Below, piece by piece: positions 12,682-63,928 of a stretch of 64,000 nt of DNA (its first letter is position 1; every line of letters begins with the position of its first letter). The stretch covers positions 62,001 through 126,000 of the forward strand of contig JAOZHV010000022.1 of NCBI GenBank assembly GCA_026014725.1. The letters are read 5' to 3'. Both the position numbers and the translations under genes were made by a program. The notes beneath the pieces were generated by a model. That model was not told where the DNA came from. It saw nothing but the letters and a program-made list of their open reading frames with translations, and did not search any database. Origin of the DNA: Candidatus Bathyarchaeota archaeon (GTDB lineage: Archaea; Thermoproteota; Bathyarchaeia; Bathyarchaeales; Bathycorpusculaceae).

Positions 12682-13106
12682 CCTTCACCATTAAAAGATG
12701 TGTGATATGAAGCACGGTTTTCTTAAATTCCATATAAAATTTTGCAAAACCCGATAGCCCCAACTGTCTTGTTGAACAATCAGACAAACTCAACATTCAA
12801 GTTGCCAATGTCTTGATTGCAGGTGCTCTGCCGCGTTTAAAGGCGCAATTCTGCCGTTGCCAACCGCAACCTGCTTGTACAACGTCCACAACCAATAAGC
12901 AACCGAAACCAGACGCAGACACAAAAAAACAATGCGTAGATAACCCCGCTGGAAGATGATGAGTAAGGGAACCACTTTCTTCTTCTACTACTAGAAAAAA
13001 CAAAACAACCAAACTACAAGTTACCTATGAATCCCTGCAAACGGCAATTCGGCGTTTTTGGCAAAAAACCTAAATGCAGTAGAGTACCAATGCACTATAA
13101 AACAGG
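12682..13106. other. Gene-free spacer between regulator and archaeosortase
   Basis: These 425 bases carry only overlapping frames of 60-75 codons on the minus strand (12790-12975 and 12797-13012). They lack ribosome-binding sites and plausible composition; a decayed gene is possible. A TATA-like CTATAAAA lies at about 13091-13098, just upstream of the archaeosortase start. No tRNA-like or repeat structure was seen. Confidence 0.4.
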
Positions 13107-30402: not shown

Positions 30403-30446
30403 ATCCTATTTGGCGTCTATTAGTATCCTATTTGGATGCTATTAGA
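30403..30446 (+). repeat. 22-bp tandem duplication
   Basis: Two adjacent copies, ATCCTATTTGG followed by a variable triplet and CTATTAG, occupy 30403-30424 and 30425-30446 and differ at four positions. The second copy runs into the G-rich element at 30441. Confidence 0.8.
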
Positions 30447-30486
30447 AATTCTATGCAGAAACTATAGAGGGGTAGGTTGCTGTTGC
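30441..30486 (+). repeat. G-rich intergenic element, class A, copy 1
   Basis: The block contains ATTAGAAA, TCTATGCAGAAAC, TATAGAGGGGTAGGT and GCTGTTG in that order. A near-identical block occurs on the minus strand at 63801-63846, in another intergenic region. About 40 of 46 positions agree by eye. Function is unknown. Confidence 0.7.
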
Positions 30487-30500
30487 AGTTTACGTTTTGG

Positions 30501-30593
30501 TTTACTACGTACATTCAGGGTTCTCTATTTACTGCGTACATCGCAGGGTTGATTGTACGTAATAACAGGCACAGAGCTCATGTACGTAGTAAA
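30501..30593. repeat. Symmetric array of four CGTACA/TGTACG half-sites
   Basis: TTTACTACGTACAT at 30501-30514 is exactly inverted as ATGTACGTAGTAAA at 30580-30593. Between them lie TTTACTGCGTACAT (30528-30541) and TGTACGTAATAA (30554-30565). The GTAC cores start at 30509, 30536, 30555 and 30582, giving spacings of 27, 19 and 27 bp. This is the architecture of a multi-site operator. The half-site is like the GTACA...TGTAC palindrome in front of trpB2. Confidence 0.75.
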
Positions 30594-30608
30594 AACCAGA
30601 CAATTCAC

Positions 30609-30650
30609 CCCTTTAAATAGGGGGATAGGGTAGTGGGCAGAGCAACAAAG
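30609..30650 (+). repeat. G-rich intergenic element, class B, copy 1
   Basis: CCTTTAAATA, a TATA-like core, is followed by GGGGGATAGG (30620-30629) and by GCAGAGCAACAAAG (30637-30650). Related copies lie at 37192-37231 (+) and 58705-58757 (-). The conserved CAGAGCAACAA begins about 24 bp after the centre of the TATA-like core, where an archaeal transcript would start. Confidence 0.7.
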
Positions 30651-30765
30651 TCACAATCAGCTATACCGCTAAAAACGCTTAGGAAAGACATGTTGAAAGA
30701 CTATTATTTCTAACAATAAATTTATTGGATTGAAAAAACAAACTCTAATGTAAGGTGACTTGTGA

Positions 30766-31359
30766 ATGTCTTCAGATATAGACGATTACCCTGACTGGTT
30801 CAGAAAAAGGCGCCCAGCCAAAGACCCGTTCTTTAGCGACATAGACAGCATGTTCAAAGAAATGGAAAGGATGATGGATGAAGAACTCAAAAACTTCGCG
30901 CAGAGAGTCCCCAAAGAATACGTCAAAGAACGCCAACTGCCAGACGGCAGCACCGTCAAAGAGCTAGGGCCATTCGTTTACGGTTACAGCATGAAAATAG
31001 GCCCAGATGGCAAGCCTGAAATCCAAGAGTTCGGCAACCTCAAAAAAGGCCTCAAAGGCACACCCCAAGTAAAAGAAGAACGCGAACCACTCGTGGACAT
31101 TGTTGAAACAAACGATGAAGTCCGCGTGGTCGTGGAACTCCCAGGCGTGGAAAAAACTGACATAAAACTTCACGGCACTGAGGATTCACTGGAAATTTCA
31201 GTTGATACACCGCAATACAAGTATTATAAGGAAGTTGAGTTACCCGCTAAAGTTAGGGTTAAAGAGGCAAAATCCACCTACAAAAACGGCGTCTTAGAAG
31301 TGGTTCTTCCAAAATCTGAGCCCCAAAAGCCCAAAGGCGAACCAATCAACATAGGCTAA
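30766..31359 (+). CDS. Small heat-shock protein with extended N-terminal region
   Basis: The alpha-crystallin domain occupies about residues 105-190 (EPLVDIVETNDEVRVVVELPG, then NGVLEVVLPKS). The first 100 residues contain DPFFSDIDSMFKEMERMMDEEL and a glycine-rich GPFVYGYSMKIGPDGKPEI segment, typical of one archaeal Hsp20 subgroup. It is a holdase chaperone, cytosolic. An AAGGTGA site lies 7 nt before the ATG. The complex promoter region upstream suggests dedicated regulation. Confidence 0.9.
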   Translation: MSSDIDDYPDWFRKRRPAKDPFFSDIDSMFKEMERMMDEELKNFAQRVPKEYVKERQLPDGSTVKELGPFVYGYSMKIGPDGKPEIQEFGNLKKGLKGTPQVKEEREPLVDIVETNDEVRVVVELPGVEKTDIKLHGTEDSLEISVDTPQYKYYKEVELPAKVRVKEAKSTYKNGVLEVVLPKSEPQKPKGEPINIG

Positions 31360-37191: not shown

Positions 37192-37231
37192 ATGCTTTTA
37201 TAGGGGGATAGGTCTACCGCAAACAAACAAG
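37192..37231 (+). repeat. G-rich intergenic element, class B, copy 2
   Basis: CTTTTATAGGGGGATAGG is followed by TCTACCGCAAACAAACAAG. It matches the copy at 58705-58757 in the core and, more loosely, downstream. It lies 230 bp upstream of the thermosome start and does not overlap its likely TATA box. Confidence 0.6.
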
Positions 37232-37406
37232 CCCTCGCTTTTTTCTGCATACGCTTCCATATACCGCCTATATAATAGGGGGCTATAGAAAAAAATCCCG
37301 CTTAAGCCCACTCACAACTACTAAAAAAACAACAACACAAAAAAACAAGCACACGATACAAAAACCACAAACAAATAGCTACATAAACACGCCATCACTA
37401 GAAAAA

Positions 37407-37463: not shown

Positions 37464-39152
37464 TTGTCAACAGCACCAACCCAAGCAAGCGGCATACCCG
37501 TTCTCGTCCTAAAAGAAGGCTCAAACCGCACACGCGGAAGAGAAGCCCAACACGGCAACATAACAGCCGCAAAAATCGTAGCCGAAAGCATCAAAAGCGC
37601 TCTTGGCCCAAAAGGCATGGACAAAATGCTCGTTGACAGTTTCGGAGACGTCACCATCACAAGCGACGGACGCACAATCCTCGACGAAATGGACATCCAG
37701 CACCCAGCAGCAAAAATGCTCGTCGAAGTCGCCAAAACACAAGACAAAGAAGCAGGCGACGGAACAACCAGCGCCGTCATAATCGCAGGAGAACTCCTAA
37801 ACCGCGCCGAAGAACTCATCGACAAAAACATTCACCCAACCATCATAATTGACGGCTACAGAAAAGCTGCAGAAAAAGCCCTTGAAACACTTGAGAAAAT
37901 CGCCATCCCCATCGACACAAAATTAAAAGATTACCTCAAAAAAGCAGCAACCACATCCATGGGCAGCAAAATCGTAGCTGAACACAAAGAATACCTGGCT
38001 GGCATCGTTGTAAAAGCCATGCTTGCAGTAGCCGAGAAAACAGGCGGCTCTTACAAAGTGGATGTTGACGATGTCAAAGTTGAGAAGAAAACAGGTGAAT
38101 CCACAAGCGACACCACCCTAATCAACGGCATAGTTTTAGACAAAGAGATCGTCCACACAGGCATGCCAAAACGCGTAGAAAACGCCAAGATTGCATTGCT
38201 TGACGCTTCACTGGAAGTTGAAAAAACCGAGTTAGACGCAAAAATTAACATTGAATCGCCCGAGCAGATTGAAGCGTTCCTAAAACAGGAAGAAACCATG
38301 CTCAAAACGATGGTGGAAAAAATTGTGGCTTCAGGCGCCAACGTCGTTATCTGCCAAAAAGGCATTGACGACATGGTGCAGCATTTCCTTGCTCGAAAAG
38401 GCATAATCGCTGTTAGAAGAGCCAAAAAATCAGACATGGAAAAGCTCGCCAAAGCCACAGGCGGCAAAATCCAAAGCAACATCGATGCACTTTCAGCTTC
38501 TGACCTTGGTTGCGCTGCGGTTGTGGAAGAGCGCAGAGTTGGTGATGATAAAATGACGTTTGTTGAGGGCTGCAAGAACCCGAAGGCTGTGACGATTTTG
38601 GTTCGCGGTGGGACTCAGCGTATGACTGCAGAAGCTGAGCGTTCGATTCACGATGGCCTCTGCGTTGTGAAGGATTTGCTTTTGGAGCCTAAAGTTGTTG
38701 CTGGTGGTGGGGCTCCTGAATTGGAGGTTGCGAAAGCGCTTAAGGGTTATGCTCAGACTTTGCCGGGGAGAGAGCAACTTGCGGTTAGGGTTTTTGCTGA
38801 TGCTTTCGAGTCGATTGCTGTTACGTTAGCGGAGAATGCTGGTTTGGACCCTGTTGATGTTTTGTCTGAGTTGCGTGCTCGGCACGAGAAGGGTGAAACT
38901 TGGGCTGGAATAGAGATGCTCAGCGGGAAGGTTGTGGATATGTCTGTGGTTGGGGTTTTTGAGCCGCTGGGTGTTAAGAAGCAGATTGTTAAGAGTGCGG
39001 TTGAGGCTGCTTCGTTGATTTTGAAGATTGATGATGTAATTGCGTCTGGTAAGATGAAGAGTCCTCCGATGCCGCCTGGGGGAGGTATGCCTGGTGGTGG
39101 TATGGGAGGCATGGGTGGTATGGGTGGTTATCCTGGTTCTGGAGAGTATTAG
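37464..39152 (+). CDS. thsA: Thermosome (group II chaperonin) subunit
   Basis: The 562-residue ATP-dependent chaperonin subunit has [23 protein letters not shown], the ATP-site [15 protein letters not shown], the group-II motif [11 protein letters not shown] and a C-terminal GGM-rich tail. It folds proteins inside a double-ring cage without GroES. The start is TTG at 37464. Codon style changes inside the gene: the first 1 kb prefers C- and A-ending codons, the last 0.6 kb G- and T-ending codons, with the switch near 38.5 kb. It is followed 2 nt later by rpoK. Confidence 0.97.
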
Positions 39153-54055: not shown

Positions 54056-56377
54056 ATGCTTGCAGTCAATAAAAAATATGATTTGGTGCTGTTAGTTTTT
54101 GCTTTCGCCTTTGTTTACCGTGCAGTTTTGATGCTTTGGGAAACTTTCCCACCTGGTGCGGACATCGGTCTCCATAACAGCGTTATTTACTCAATAACTG
54201 GGTCAGGAAACGCTGATTTCTTCTATAACTTTTATCACATTGGCGGTGGGACATCGCTTACTTTTCCAGGATACCACATTTTCGCTTCAGCAGTAATGTT
54301 GTTTACTGGGTTGCCTGAATATGTAGCGCATGCAGTGGTTGTCTCTTTGTTTTCAGCGCTGATTGTTTTGGCTGCTTTTTTGATAACTAAACGAGTATGG
54401 TCTGAGCCAGCGGCCTATATTGTAGCATTTTTAGCGGCGATTTCACGTTTTGACATCGAGATGCTTATGTGGGCGGGCTACCCAAACGTAATAACGCTAC
54501 TCTTGATTCCAGTAGTGTTCTACCTGTACTTAAACAAAGACCGCTTTTCCACAGCACCTTTCTTAGCCGCAACCTCTATTTTTGCTGGGTCAATATTTCT
54601 AACTCATTCTTTAAGCGTTGCAATGTACGTGGCCATAACCGTTTTAGTAGTGCTCTTTGTAGTGGTTAAACCAAAACTGTTAGGAACAACACCGAAAACT
54701 GGTCTTTACTGGCTGTTACCGATTATTATTGGAGCCATTCTCTTTTCTCCATTTTTAATACAGGCTGTTCCTGCATACTTAAGTAACAACTCTACATTAG
54801 CCGATGATGTTGCAACAAACGCCATCAGGATGGCAACGCTTTCAACCCGAATGCTTCCTCTCGAGTTAGTATTGCCGCTTTTCGGTGCGCTTGCAGGATT
54901 TCTTATTTTTTCAAAAAAGTATTTCGGGCGTTTTTTTGTCTTGCCAACTTTTCTTTTAGTGGTATGGCTTTTTTTGCCCCTCATATTAACGCAAGGTTAT
55001 GTGGTTGGGTTCGCAATTGATTATAACCGTTTCCTTTACTTCTTGATTTTGCCGCTAATTATTTTCATAGGCGTGCTTATCGAGCACGGGGCAGGCTTTT
55101 TTGCGCACACGATAGTTAAATACCGAGACACCCATACGCCGATATACAGTGACAAGAAACTATCACGCTTTTTGTTTTCTCTAACACATAAGAAAGTTTA
55201 CGGCGCGTTCATCGTTTTCTTTCTGCTCTTCTCATTCATTGCAATTCCAATTTTTATGGGACCAATATACAATGCTGGCCAAACAATCCAAAGCTATTAT
55301 CAGACCATGAATAAAGAGGGGTGGGAAGCTATCCAATGGGCAAAAGCCAACACGCCTGCGGATTCAGTGTTTGTTTCTGATGCGTTGTATGGTTGGTGGT
55401 TTAGCGGGTTTGCCCAGCGGCGAACGTACAGTGCTGTTGACCCACAATACCTGTCAATTAATGAGGAATACGCCAAAACCTTGTTTGCAAGAACTTTGCT
55501 TGATACGGATTATTTAATTGACAATGGCTTGGTTCAAGTCAGGGAAGACGGCGGATACATTGCAAGGCATAACCCAGAGATTTTAGCCACGCTTAATTGG
55601 ACCTATTTTCCTTTCTCTTTCTTTAATTTTGACAGCAACAATGTGAAAATCAGGTATAACGGAAACCAATTAGTAAGCTTGGCTCAACTTGAAGTGAAAG
55701 AAATGTCTTTTGAAAGTGACAGCCAACATGCTACAATCGTTGTTACTAGGGGTAACGATTACTTCACCTATACACAACTAACCACAGTTTATAGGGGGTT
55801 ACGTTTCGTTAACTTGACATCAACAATAAAGAGCACAGTTCCCGATGCCAAGTTGGAATGGGTTGATTTAGCGGTTGAATGCGAAGGAACTACGCTGTAC
55901 AATGATAAGCAGACCGTTGCTCTGATAGCTGAAGGCGTAAAAGTCTTTGGGCAATTAATATTTAATACGGAACCGTTCAGTGCAGATTTAGTTAAGCAGA
56001 GCGGTTCCGAAGTAGTGGATTCCGTGCAACTAATTTATTCACTCAATGGAATGTCTAAAGCAGAAATAACAATTTTAGCCAGTGCATATTCAGTTACCGA
56101 TAACCTGCAGTACTACAGAGATGCTAAAACCAAAAGTGACTACTTTCAGCCTATAATTATTTCCAATCTGGAACAAAATCAAAAACCAACGGCACAGGAG
56201 TTTGTACAAGTTTTTAACTATCAAACAGAAATGCAAAACTACAACGTCTCGTACATCGCTTGCAGGGCTCCTGAAATGTACGAAAAGTTTTCCAAAGACC
56301 CCTTGTTTAGCCTTGTGTTTATTAACAGCGAAGTTGCCATCTTTAAAGTTAAAGGGAACCTAAGTCAAGACGGGTGA
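54056..56377 (+). CDS. Large GT-C-like membrane protein with extracellular domain
   Basis: The 773-residue product has about a dozen membrane helices to residue 415 and an external C-terminal half. The loop ETFPPGADIGLHNSVIYS carries an acidic Asp-x-Gly of the GT-C type, followed by LTFPGYHIFASAVMLF. The segment AIQWAKANTPADSVFVSDALYGWWFSGFAQRRTYS corresponds to the region after the helices in oligosaccharyltransferase-like relatives. The beta-rich tail is unique. A strong GGGGGGAAG precedes the ATG. It overlaps the next gene by 4 nt and is its paralogue. Confidence 0.78.
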   Translation: MLAVNKKYDLVLLVFAFAFVYRAVLMLWETFPPGADIGLHNSVIYSITGSGNADFFYNFYHIGGGTSLTFPGYHIFASAVMLFTGLPEYVAHAVVVSLFSALIVLAAFLITKRVWSEPAAYIVAFLAAISRFDIEMLMWAGYPNVITLLLIPVVFYLYLNKDRFSTAPFLAATSIFAGSIFLTHSLSVAMYVAITVLVVLFVVVKPKLLGTTPKTGLYWLLPIIIGAILFSPFLIQAVPAYLSNNSTLADDVATNAIRMATLSTRMLPLELVLPLFGALAGFLIFSKKYFGRFFVLPTFLLVVWLFLPLILTQGYVVGFAIDYNRFLYFLILPLIIFIGVLIEHGAGFFAHTIVKYRDTHTPIYSDKKLSRFLFSLTHKKVYGAFIVFFLLFSFIAIPIFMGPIYNAGQTIQSYYQTMNKEGWEAIQWAKANTPADSVFVSDALYGWWFSGFAQRRTYSAVDPQYLSINEEYAKTLFARTLLDTDYLIDNGLVQVREDGGYIARHNPEILATLNWTYFPFSFFNFDSNNVKIRYNGNQLVSLAQLEVKEMSFESDSQHATIVVTRGNDYFTYTQLTTVYRGLRFVNLTSTIKSTVPDAKLEWVDLAVECEGTTLYNDKQTVALIAEGVKVFGQLIFNTEPFSADLVKQSGSEVVDSVQLIYSLNGMSKAEITILASAYSVTDNLQYYRDAKTKSDYFQPIIISNLEQNQKPTAQEFVQVFNYQTEMQNYNVSYIACRAPEMYEKFSKDPLFSLVFINSEVAIFKVKGNLSQDG

Positions 56378-58683
56378 GAGTCAACGCCTTGATGGATACA
56401 GTTGAAAGAGAGAAAAAAACCGAGATTGCATTCATCACTATTTTCTCAGTGCTCATTTTCGTTATTTTCTATTTCCTCATTTCGATGAATGGCTTAGTTT
56501 TAGGCAATGACCCTGCTGTGCACTTGGAGAAGGCACAAATCTTCTTGCAGACAGGAAAGATTCCGCTAGTAAATTTAGGTTGGACTCCGCCGCTTTACTC
56601 AATCCTGCTTGCGATACTCATGTATTTTACAGGAGCCACTGACATTGGGCAGTTAATCTTTCTGGTGAAAGCTTTAGCGGTAATTATTGATTGGCTAATG
56701 TTCATGTCAGTTTATTTGCTCGGCAGCAAGTTTTTCAACAAGAAAGTCGGTGCTTTGGCAGCGGTTTTGCTGTTGATGTGTTTTCCTATGTTTGAGGTTA
56801 ACTTGTGGGGTGGCTACACGAGTGTTTTGGGTATAGCGTTCATGTTCCTGCTCTTGTTGTATTTGCCCTTATCCCATGAAAAGTTTGGGTATTTGATTGT
56901 GACTTTCTTCGCAGCTTTTTCAATAGTTTTATCCCATCAGCTTGCTACATTTGTGGCTGCACTTGTTTTGCCGCCAGTTATGCTGTTTATGCTCATAAAA
57001 GGCAAAGGGGCCTCTCTTAAGGTTATTTTAGTTTTGATGATTGGCGGAGGCATAGCGTTTGCGCTCTATTATCTGCAGGCAATGATGGGTTATCTTGACA
57101 TGATAATTGAGCACGTGTTTTTTTCTCAGAAAACTTATACTTACCAGATTCCAGCAACCAGCCTTGAATCTTTCATGATTAATTTCGGGTTTATTTTCCT
57201 TGTTGCGTTTGGCGGCTTGTTTGTTGCTTTTAAAGTTTTGAGGGCGGCTAAGAAGCCTATTTTCTATGTAATTTTGCTTGTTAGTTTTGTTGTTCCTTTG
57301 ATTTTGGCTTGGTCTTACTTGTTTGGTTTGTACTTGCCGTTTCAATGGTTCATCTATTATGTGCTTACTCCGACGGTTGTTTTGGCAGCGGTTTTTCTTG
57401 TTTTCATAGCCGATAAGGCGGCGGCATTGTATGTTAGAAGCAGGGCGAGTTTGCGTCGCAACTGGATAAAAATAGGTGTGATTGGCTTGATTGTTTTGAT
57501 GTCGGGAGTGGTTGTTTTGCGGTCAAGCACGGTTTATGGCAAAATCATGGAGGGCAGCGTCTATTATTCGACTTCTGATGTTAAAGCGTTCGATGCAGGC
57601 ATCTGGCTAAGAGACCATTATCCTGAAAACCGCACGGTTGTGGTTACGGAGGTTCCTGGCTTTTGGTTCCAAGAGTACTCAGGCAAGCCTGTTATTGCTC
57701 AAACTGATCTTACGGTGCAGCGGAACGAGATTGCTGAATCAGTTTTGAGTTTGTCTTATGAGATTGAGCATCCGCAGACTTTAGTGAAGGCTTACGAGGC
57801 GAAGGGTGCAATTTCGGATGAAGATTATGTTTCGCTTGATCATATTTGGTATAGGGTTTCTTATTGTTCTGCTGCTGGCAACCAATTGATTTACACGCAA
57901 GATGGGGTTGACTTTAAGGTTTGGCTCTCTTCTTTGAGTAAGCAGGTTGTTTTTGATGACCAGAGTTTCCCAAAGAAGATACAGTTCACTTATTCCAACG
58001 AAAACTTCACCCTAACGCAGACGGTGCTTGTTGAGAACAACACTTACCCCGTGACAGTGGCTTGGACGTTAACGCCATTGCGAAGCGGAATCTCCAACGC
58101 TGCACTCTATCTGAGCACTTTCTTTGACCTCAAATTCACGTTCAGCAAGGCGCATATTCCTCAGGTTTTAGATTGGGTGAATCCTTGGGATGCGCCTTCG
58201 AATTTACGTGAAGTGCATGGAGAAGAGTGGGCGGTTGCTAACTTTGCTGGTTCTGATGTAGCGGGTAGTTATTTGGGGCTCTATGATGACATCAGCGATA
58301 TTGCGTTTGCTTTTCGGTTTGTTGATTTGCCTGAGTGGGGCAACATCGGTGCGTTGCCTAATAGACAGATTGATGCGGTTCGGTTCCAATACGAATTTGA
58401 TAGTTTAGACGTTAATGAGACAGTTTCTTGTTCTTATCAGGTTTTGACCATGTCAAAGAATAGTTTTCCGTCGTTGTCGCCTGAGGGGTTAGAGAGTTTG
58501 TTTGACTTAAAAACAACTGTGTTCACGGTCGCATCGAGAGATTTTAGAGACTACATAGCGCAATATGACATTGGCTTTATCGTTTATGACCGAAACCAAC
58601 TTGACACTAAAATGATTCACAGCAAGCTCTTGCAGTTAATCTATTCAAACGACAGGTATGTAATCTTCAAAATCGCAAAATAA
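56374..58683 (+). CDS. Large GT-C-like membrane protein, second of a pair
   Basis: The 769-residue protein parallels its upstream neighbour: loop VLGNDPAVHLEKAQIFLQTGKIPL with an Asp, about twelve helices, a segment WLRDHYPENRTVVVTEVPGFWFQEYSGKPVIAQTD, and an extracellular beta domain. The GTG at 56374 overlaps the previous stop; an ATG at 56392 is an alternative. The pair may form a heteromeric glycosyltransferase or act on successive sugars (inference). Confidence 0.76.
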   Translation: MRVNALMDTVEREKKTEIAFITIFSVLIFVIFYFLISMNGLVLGNDPAVHLEKAQIFLQTGKIPLVNLGWTPPLYSILLAILMYFTGATDIGQLIFLVKALAVIIDWLMFMSVYLLGSKFFNKKVGALAAVLLLMCFPMFEVNLWGGYTSVLGIAFMFLLLLYLPLSHEKFGYLIVTFFAAFSIVLSHQLATFVAALVLPPVMLFMLIKGKGASLKVILVLMIGGGIAFALYYLQAMMGYLDMIIEHVFFSQKTYTYQIPATSLESFMINFGFIFLVAFGGLFVAFKVLRAAKKPIFYVILLVSFVVPLILAWSYLFGLYLPFQWFIYYVLTPTVVLAAVFLVFIADKAAALYVRSRASLRRNWIKIGVIGLIVLMSGVVVLRSSTVYGKIMEGSVYYSTSDVKAFDAGIWLRDHYPENRTVVVTEVPGFWFQEYSGKPVIAQTDLTVQRNEIAESVLSLSYEIEHPQTLVKAYEAKGAISDEDYVSLDHIWYRVSYCSAAGNQLIYTQDGVDFKVWLSSLSKQVVFDDQSFPKKIQFTYSNENFTLTQTVLVENNTYPVTVAWTLTPLRSGISNAALYLSTFFDLKFTFSKAHIPQVLDWVNPWDAPSNLREVHGEEWAVANFAGSDVAGSYLGLYDDISDIAFAFRFVDLPEWGNIGALPNRQIDAVRFQYEFDSLDVNETVSCSYQVLTMSKNSFPSLSPEGLESLFDLKTTVFTVASRDFRDYIAQYDIGFIVYDRNQLDTKMIHSKLLQLIYSNDRYVIFKIAK

Positions 58684-58704
58684 CATTGCCGCCCTTGGGA
58701 CTTG

Positions 58705-58757
58705 CTGAATCTTGTTGCTCTGCCATAGAGCCTATCCCCCTATATAAAGGGCGGATT
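58705..58757 (-). repeat. G-rich intergenic element, class B, copy 3
   Basis: On the minus strand: CGCCCTTTATATA, GGGGGATAGG (58731-58740), CTCTATGGCAGAGCAACAAG (58711-58730). It matches the 30609 copy in the core and in GCAGAGCAACAA. Reading direction is opposite to the flanking genes. Confidence 0.7.
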
Positions 58758-63747: not shown

Positions 63748-63800
63748 CATTAGTTCGAAAAAATACAAGCAGAACCAACAGCTAATGGACTGCTTTTTCG

Positions 63801-63860
63801 CCAATAGCGACCTACCCCCTATAGGTTTCTGCATAGAGTTTCTAATATGCTCCAAATATG
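63801..63860 (-). repeat. G-rich intergenic element, class A, copy 2
   Basis: On the minus strand: ATATTTGGAGC, ATATTAGAAACTCTATGCAG, AAACCTATAGGGGGTAGGTC, GCTATTGG. It corresponds block by block to 30431-30486. It lies in the 181-bp spacer between the radical SAM gene and the histone gene. Confidence 0.7.
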
Positions 63861-63928
63861 GGGATTTTAGCAAGAGTTTAAAATTCTAAAAAAAAGAAGA
63901 AAGGGAGGATCTTGAATTTATTAGGTTA

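Follow-up and report, generated by a model that had tools for sequence, protein, structure and literature searches.

Results

Element B and its neighbourhood

The window, by which we mean the whole 64-kb stretch of DNA analysed here, comprises positions 62001-126000 of contig C22 from a 2.56 Mb genome (G000; 63 contigs, 97%-complete). Three copies of a sequence that we call element B are present in it, all of them intergenic according to the ORF list. A sequence-only reading had already placed these copies, and each was recovered at its position with the family profile, which gave no further matches in the 64 kb. Genes coding for Hsp20 (at 30766) and Cpn60/thermosome (at 37464) are neighbours of copies 1 and 2, respectively, and copy 3 is directed toward the 3' end of the gene at 56374-58683. 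Further kinds of sequence recur around element B, among them modules A, C and Y and arrays of palindromes, and the features of the window are as follows:

12867..13003, +: module Y copy (120.4 bits), the only one in the window, with no recognisable B upstream
30426..30500, +: aligned segment of module A (core CTATAGAGGGGTAGG), upstream of copy 1
30498..30596, +: array of E-type palindromes (TTTACTACGTACAT ... ATGTACGTAGTAAA) lying between module A and copy 1, boundaries drawn by eye
30603..30652, +: element B copy 1, family profile 47.5 bits
30612-30619, +: TATA box of copy 1, TTTAAATA
30620-30629, +: G-core of copy 1, GGGGGATAGG
30637-30649, +: leader block of copy 1, GCAGAGCAACAAA
about 30641-30644, +: start of copy 1 as predicted from the distance to the TATA box
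37196..37238, +: element B copy 2, weaker, family profile 28.2 bits
37195-37202, +: TATA box of copy 2, CTTTTATA, followed by its G-core at 37203-37212
37219-37231, +: block of copy 2, GCAAACAAACAAG, of the looser form; the copy is genuine though weaker
37265..37297, +: module C (CGCCTATATAATAGGGGGCTATAGAAAAAA), following copy 2
58704..58757, -: element B copy 3, family profile 54.4 bits
58748-58741, -: TATA box of copy 3, TTTATATA, followed by its G-core at 58740-58731 and its block GCAGAGCAACAAG at 58723-58711
63787..63861, -: module A without B

The 13-mer ATAGGGGGATAGG occurs three times in the 64 kb window, compared with an expected number of 0.0004. When one mismatch is allowed, GGGGGATAGG is not unusual in the window, and three or more matches were also obtained in 15 of 100 shuffles.

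Copy number and distribution

Exact copies of ATAGGGGGATAGG were found 52 times in G000 (expected about 0.015; backward-read control 0), divided equally between the two strands (26 vs 26). A sequence-only model of B (R1), which was trained on G000 and therefore undercounts distant copies, gave 100 matches at E <=0.01 in this genome and 57 (G018), 53 (G029), 27 (G009), 7, 6, 5, 3 and 1 matches in eight congeners. With the same model, no B was found in 23 other congeners. Genomes from other genera of the family also gave none in a search with stricter filters that covered 91 genomes in total. A search for further copies had been proposed together with the three window copies, and its outcome was strongly positive, with ~100 copies of B in G000 and diverged homologous elements in eight sister species. 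The original observation is correct and understated.

The core of B is species-specific, being ATAGGGGGATAGGG in G000 and mostly ATA[GA]GGGGAGGGGG in other species, and the TATA box and leader block are common to the species despite this change. Although the G000 set used for this comparison was picked by its core, the exact 13-mer, with its 52 occurrences in G000, is present at most twice in any congener. A wide distribution was rejected: GTDB contigs, a set from which near relatives are possibly absent, gave one exact composite match, which is located inside a gammaproteobacterial gene and is due to chance. Viral contigs did not contain any match, which led us to reject a virus-borne element. 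Neither the libraries nor the open-access papers that we searched contained a family of this kind.

Anatomy of element B

An alignment of 67 copies, together with a fixed-register profile of 58, resulted in the consensus [GC]CTTT[AT][AT]ATA GGGGGATAGGG, followed by a few variable bases and then GCAGAGCAACAAA. Element B spans about 44 bp, with conservation dropping beyond either end, and is composed of an archaeal TATA box (CTTTWWATA) followed by a G-rich tract and then an almost T-free block. The TATA box is found in nearly all copies, and its variable positions are nearly always A or T. Within G000, no other part of B is as well conserved as the G-core, and GGGGG with flanking TA is common to A, B and C. 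The distance between TATA box and block that had been stated for the window copies also holds, being 17-21 bp in 68 copies of G000; across four species it stays within this range in nearly all copies, with a mode of 18. In archaea, transcription starts ~28 nt downstream of the TATA box (PMC8553660), and at this distance the start of B would fall inside GCAGAGCAACAAA.

Element B carries the type of TATA box used by this organism at a fixed distance from the predicted start region. The mRNA promoters of G000, for which we surveyed 52 upstream regions with a home-made scan, have the identical TTTAWATA box, most often ~47 nt upstream of the ATG, and no G-tract. A purine-rich BRE immediately ahead of the TATA box is missing from B, which is C/G-rich at -9 to -5 and A-rich only 5-10 bp further up. 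As the mRNA promoters themselves show merely a weak A preference at this position, the BRE is no strong criterion in G000; because of its absence, we describe B as working like a core promoter and do not claim that it is a standard one. The G-tract was rejected as a general promoter feature, as it is absent from tRNA upstream regions and mRNA promoters.

Placement relative to genes

None of the 67 examined copies is located within a called ORF, as determined in the stretches around the copies with a simple home-made ORF caller that misses some genes, and the claim that B always lies between genes holds for these as well as for the three window copies. The orientation of B relative to its neighbours is random (++16, -+14, --11, +-10); the nearest convergent gene ends 11 nt from B, and called sense genes start at least 98 nt away. 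From this random orientation we conclude that B is autonomous and, in general, not a promoter of adjacent genes. Due to orientation and distance, we also rejected, as a general rule, that B serves as promoter of neighbours such as the Hsp20 and Cpn60/thermosome genes. The latter, a Cpn60/TCP-1 chaperonin gene, was assigned by a match to PF00118, a family that also includes bacterial GroEL; it has its own promoter-like sequence GAAAAACTTATATT near 37403, which is conserved in G011. Together with the TATA-box promoters, this gene suggests that G000 is archaeal.

Modules around B and their reassortment

Of 98 cases of module A (CATATTTGGATCCTATTAG..TCTATGCAGAAACCTATAGGGGGTAGGT), 80 are located upstream of B and 2 downstream. 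Module C follows B in 35 of 38 cases and precedes it in none; for module Y, 24 of 38 cases are downstream and 8 upstream, and a further module, X, flanks B either way (10 downstream, 17 upstream). On the strand opposite to B, two cases of Y were found and none of A, C or X; as most of these loci were picked for having B, nearness to B is inflated in all of these counts, but order and strand are not. In some copies, window copy 1 among them, A and B are separated by arrays of D/E palindromes (ACTACGACCAT..ATGGTCGTAGTA; ACTACGTACAT..ATGTACGTAGTA).

B is spanned by 731 pairwise similarities. Of these, 264 reach little or no further than B itself, 238 continue upstream only, 97 downstream only and 44 in both directions, compared with about 56 both-way extensions predicted under independence, and the ends of the similarities accumulate at both edges of B. 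Modules located upstream of B (A, D/E) and those that follow it (C, Y, X) have been reassorted independently through B. Near-identical, recent duplicates of modules also occur. The A and B cores were not shown to evolve together, as A retains TAGG in G029 while B changes. Module A is also found without B and in tandem (window 63787-63861 on the minus strand; L031, L032, L038), and it contains YCTATTAG-like words every ~11-12 bp, a period that would suit cooperative binding on one helix face.

Downstream bodies

Module Y is about 138 nt long and its 3' end forms a predicted hairpin, the arms of which are of either the (GUU)n/(AAC)n or the (GAA)n/(UUC)n type, with mixed forms occurring too. Two pairs of this hairpin are present as A-U/U-A in 18/14 and 14/16 sequences. 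Covariation reaches 0.280, compared with 0.112 +/- 0.019 after shuffling, a control in which relatedness remains, and none of 500 shuffles attained the observed value. The register of the hairpin is uncertain, since the arms are triplet repeats and a slide by three columns (-3) scores as high. RNAalifold alone gave no consensus structure for Y, and the Y hairpin, with this ambiguity, is the only part for which we found covarying structure. A model built with the 3' hairpin (R2) detected 59 copies of Y in G000, at least 102 in G018, 96 in G009, 59 in G029, 53 in G015 and 30 in G024. Y is present in 9 of 9 B-bearing species, and 18 of 32 species carry neither B nor Y. In G018, Y also forms tandem pairs ~157-186 bp apart (C17:20967-21263, C3:17101-17426, C14:68482-68778).

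Module X is about 360 nt long, and B together with X is retained at an orthologous site in G000 (L007) and G029 (L115). Interchangeable GGGC/GCCC stem-loops are seen in X (L115, L139, L153, L007, L114, L121, L125), and its tail often leads straight into the next B. Folding energies are slightly better for the sense than for the antisense strand. A U-run is expected at an archaeal terminator; C and Y are both followed by an A-run and not by a U-run. At the profile thresholds applied, which undercount short C bodies, 16 of 72 B matches in G000 have a body recognisable as C, Y or X within 260 nt and the other 56 have none, so that not every putative promoter has a recognised body. A known RNA family was rejected: Rfam gave no family above threshold in the window, and at eight module-bearing loci (E <=1) it gave only a tRNA and one weak match, below threshold, that overlaps this tRNA.

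Discussion

The TATA match, fixed spacing, module order and structured downstream bodies fit a reading in which element B supplies the core promoter and the 5' leader, where transcription would begin, for short structured RNAs encoded in multiple copies. We propose this with confidence that is about evenly balanced. TBP and TFB would bind CTTTWWATA of B, the G-rich tract that separates this box from the start might act as a lineage-specific control element, and the first transcribed base would lie within GCAGAGCAACAAA. The RNA would consist of a nearly U-free leader followed by one body, which could be C, Y, X or unclassified. Upstream, module A or the D/E palindromes may be bound by regulators, and recombination through B has reshuffled the parts. 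Further support for the promoter and RNA reading is provided by the autonomous placement of B, the presence of Y in all B-bearing species, the orthologous B and X pair and sense-strand folding, and a function is favoured by the strict module order, the fixed spacing and the covariation. The 56 of 72 copies lacking a recognised body, the lack of a typical BRE, the A-run in place of a U-run, the ambiguous Y register and the missing RNAalifold consensus argue against it. The sequence-only reading had interpreted B as the promoter and first bases of a family of small RNAs. This interpretation is plausible and partly supported, as the TATA match, the spacing, the order of the modules and the structure of the downstream bodies agree with it. 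The term family is too simple, since only 16 of 72 matches have a recognised body, and the loci rather represent a modular set with swappable parts.

The main rival explanation is that B and its partners are mosaic non-autonomous interspersed repeats similar to BOX elements, dispersed either through recombination or through a trans-acting transposase; any promoter activity that they have would be incidental. Patchy distribution and homogenised B cores are compatible with a mobile repeat too: B is high-copy in some species with none in close congeners, and its core has been homogenised species by species. Near-identical recent duplicates of modules and the random orientation of B to genes point in the same direction. 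However, the modules are strictly ordered and co-oriented, the TATA-to-block spacing is fixed across species, B and X have been kept at an orthologous site and viral contigs are without a match. In addition, G000 lacks a reverse transcriptase and a Y1 transposase, which argues against these two mobilisers, and reverse transcriptases are missing from all B- or Y-rich genomes. Overall, we consider this explanation unlikely. Retroposition or REP-like (REP/RAYT) mobilisation by a resident enzyme was rejected, as PF00078 and PF01797 are absent from the 97%-complete G000. Among the congeners, PF00078 reverse transcriptase genes are present in 10 of 32, and in 0 genomes rich in B or Y.

It seems quite improbable to us that B is instead a site for a DNA-binding protein, either a regulator or a chromosome organiser, with a G-rich core common to A and C and no RNA start. 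The recurrence of GGGGG with flanking TA in A, B and C and the strong conservation of the G-core in G000 would suit such a site, but the TATA box and block are conserved across species with constant spacing while the G-core varies between them, the A and B cores change separately, and the equal strand distribution is contrary to a polar chromosome signal. A strand-polarity (KOPS-like) signal was rejected for this last reason. The concentration of similarity ends at the edges of B, with 264 of 731 similarities confined or nearly confined to B and 44 extending both ways, about the level of independent shuffling, could also indicate a recombination junction at which a site-specific recombinase swaps RNA bodies and upstream modules. 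Homologous recombination through a common 44-bp promoter yields an identical pattern, though, and the variation within B suits a promoter, which makes a dedicated junction very unlikely in our view.

BOX elements of Streptococcus pneumoniae are intergenic, high-copy and modular (boxA-boxB-boxC) with predicted RNA hairpins; some are transcribed, their distribution among related species is patchy and they can alter expression (PMC3049150). The B mosaics share with them the intergenic location, high copy number, modularity, predicted hairpins and patchiness between species, and they likewise consist of ordered, recombining modules. In contrast to BOX elements, they are archaeal, their modules meet at a TATA-box core that is joined, at fixed spacing, to a block spanning the predicted start, and they have several unrelated downstream bodies, unlike BOX repeats of one unit. 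We therefore suggest that the B mosaics work like BOX elements, and claim neither a sequence relation nor common descent. Similar to archaeal core promoters (BRE/TATA), B has a TTTAWATA box and a conserved block at the expected start, but it differs from them in having no typical BRE and ~100 near-identical copies, none tied to genes, and from G000 mRNA promoters in its G-rich tract and long conserved leader. With multicopy small-RNA gene families, the mosaics share a common promoter-like start and leader, variable bodies and the covarying Y hairpin; they differ in having no Rfam match and strongly reshuffled parts.

Taken together, we regard the B mosaics as a new lineage-specific modular repeat and promoter-like family of a broadly known kind. 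An archaeal high-copy non-coding family joining a conserved core promoter to exchangeable structured RNA bodies was not found in the open-access literature that we searched. If transcribed, the B loci would encode an extensive RNA repertoire that is missing from annotation, and they would offer a natural experiment on how promoter and RNA modules are shuffled. One might speculate, as a tentative possibility somewhat on the doubtful side, that some species of one archaeal genus possess a lineage-specific transcription system with ~100 autonomous promoters per genome. In each of these, a G-rich operator would lie between the TATA box and the start, exchangeable arrays of regulator sites upstream would drive the promoter, and the products would form a combinatorial repertoire of structured RNAs that have a common nearly U-free leader.

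The palindrome arrays upstream of B (window 30498-30596; L003, L007, L033, L037, L058) contain two types of half-site, TACTACGACCAT and TACTACGTACAT, which are alike in architecture and are possibly the sites of two related regulators.
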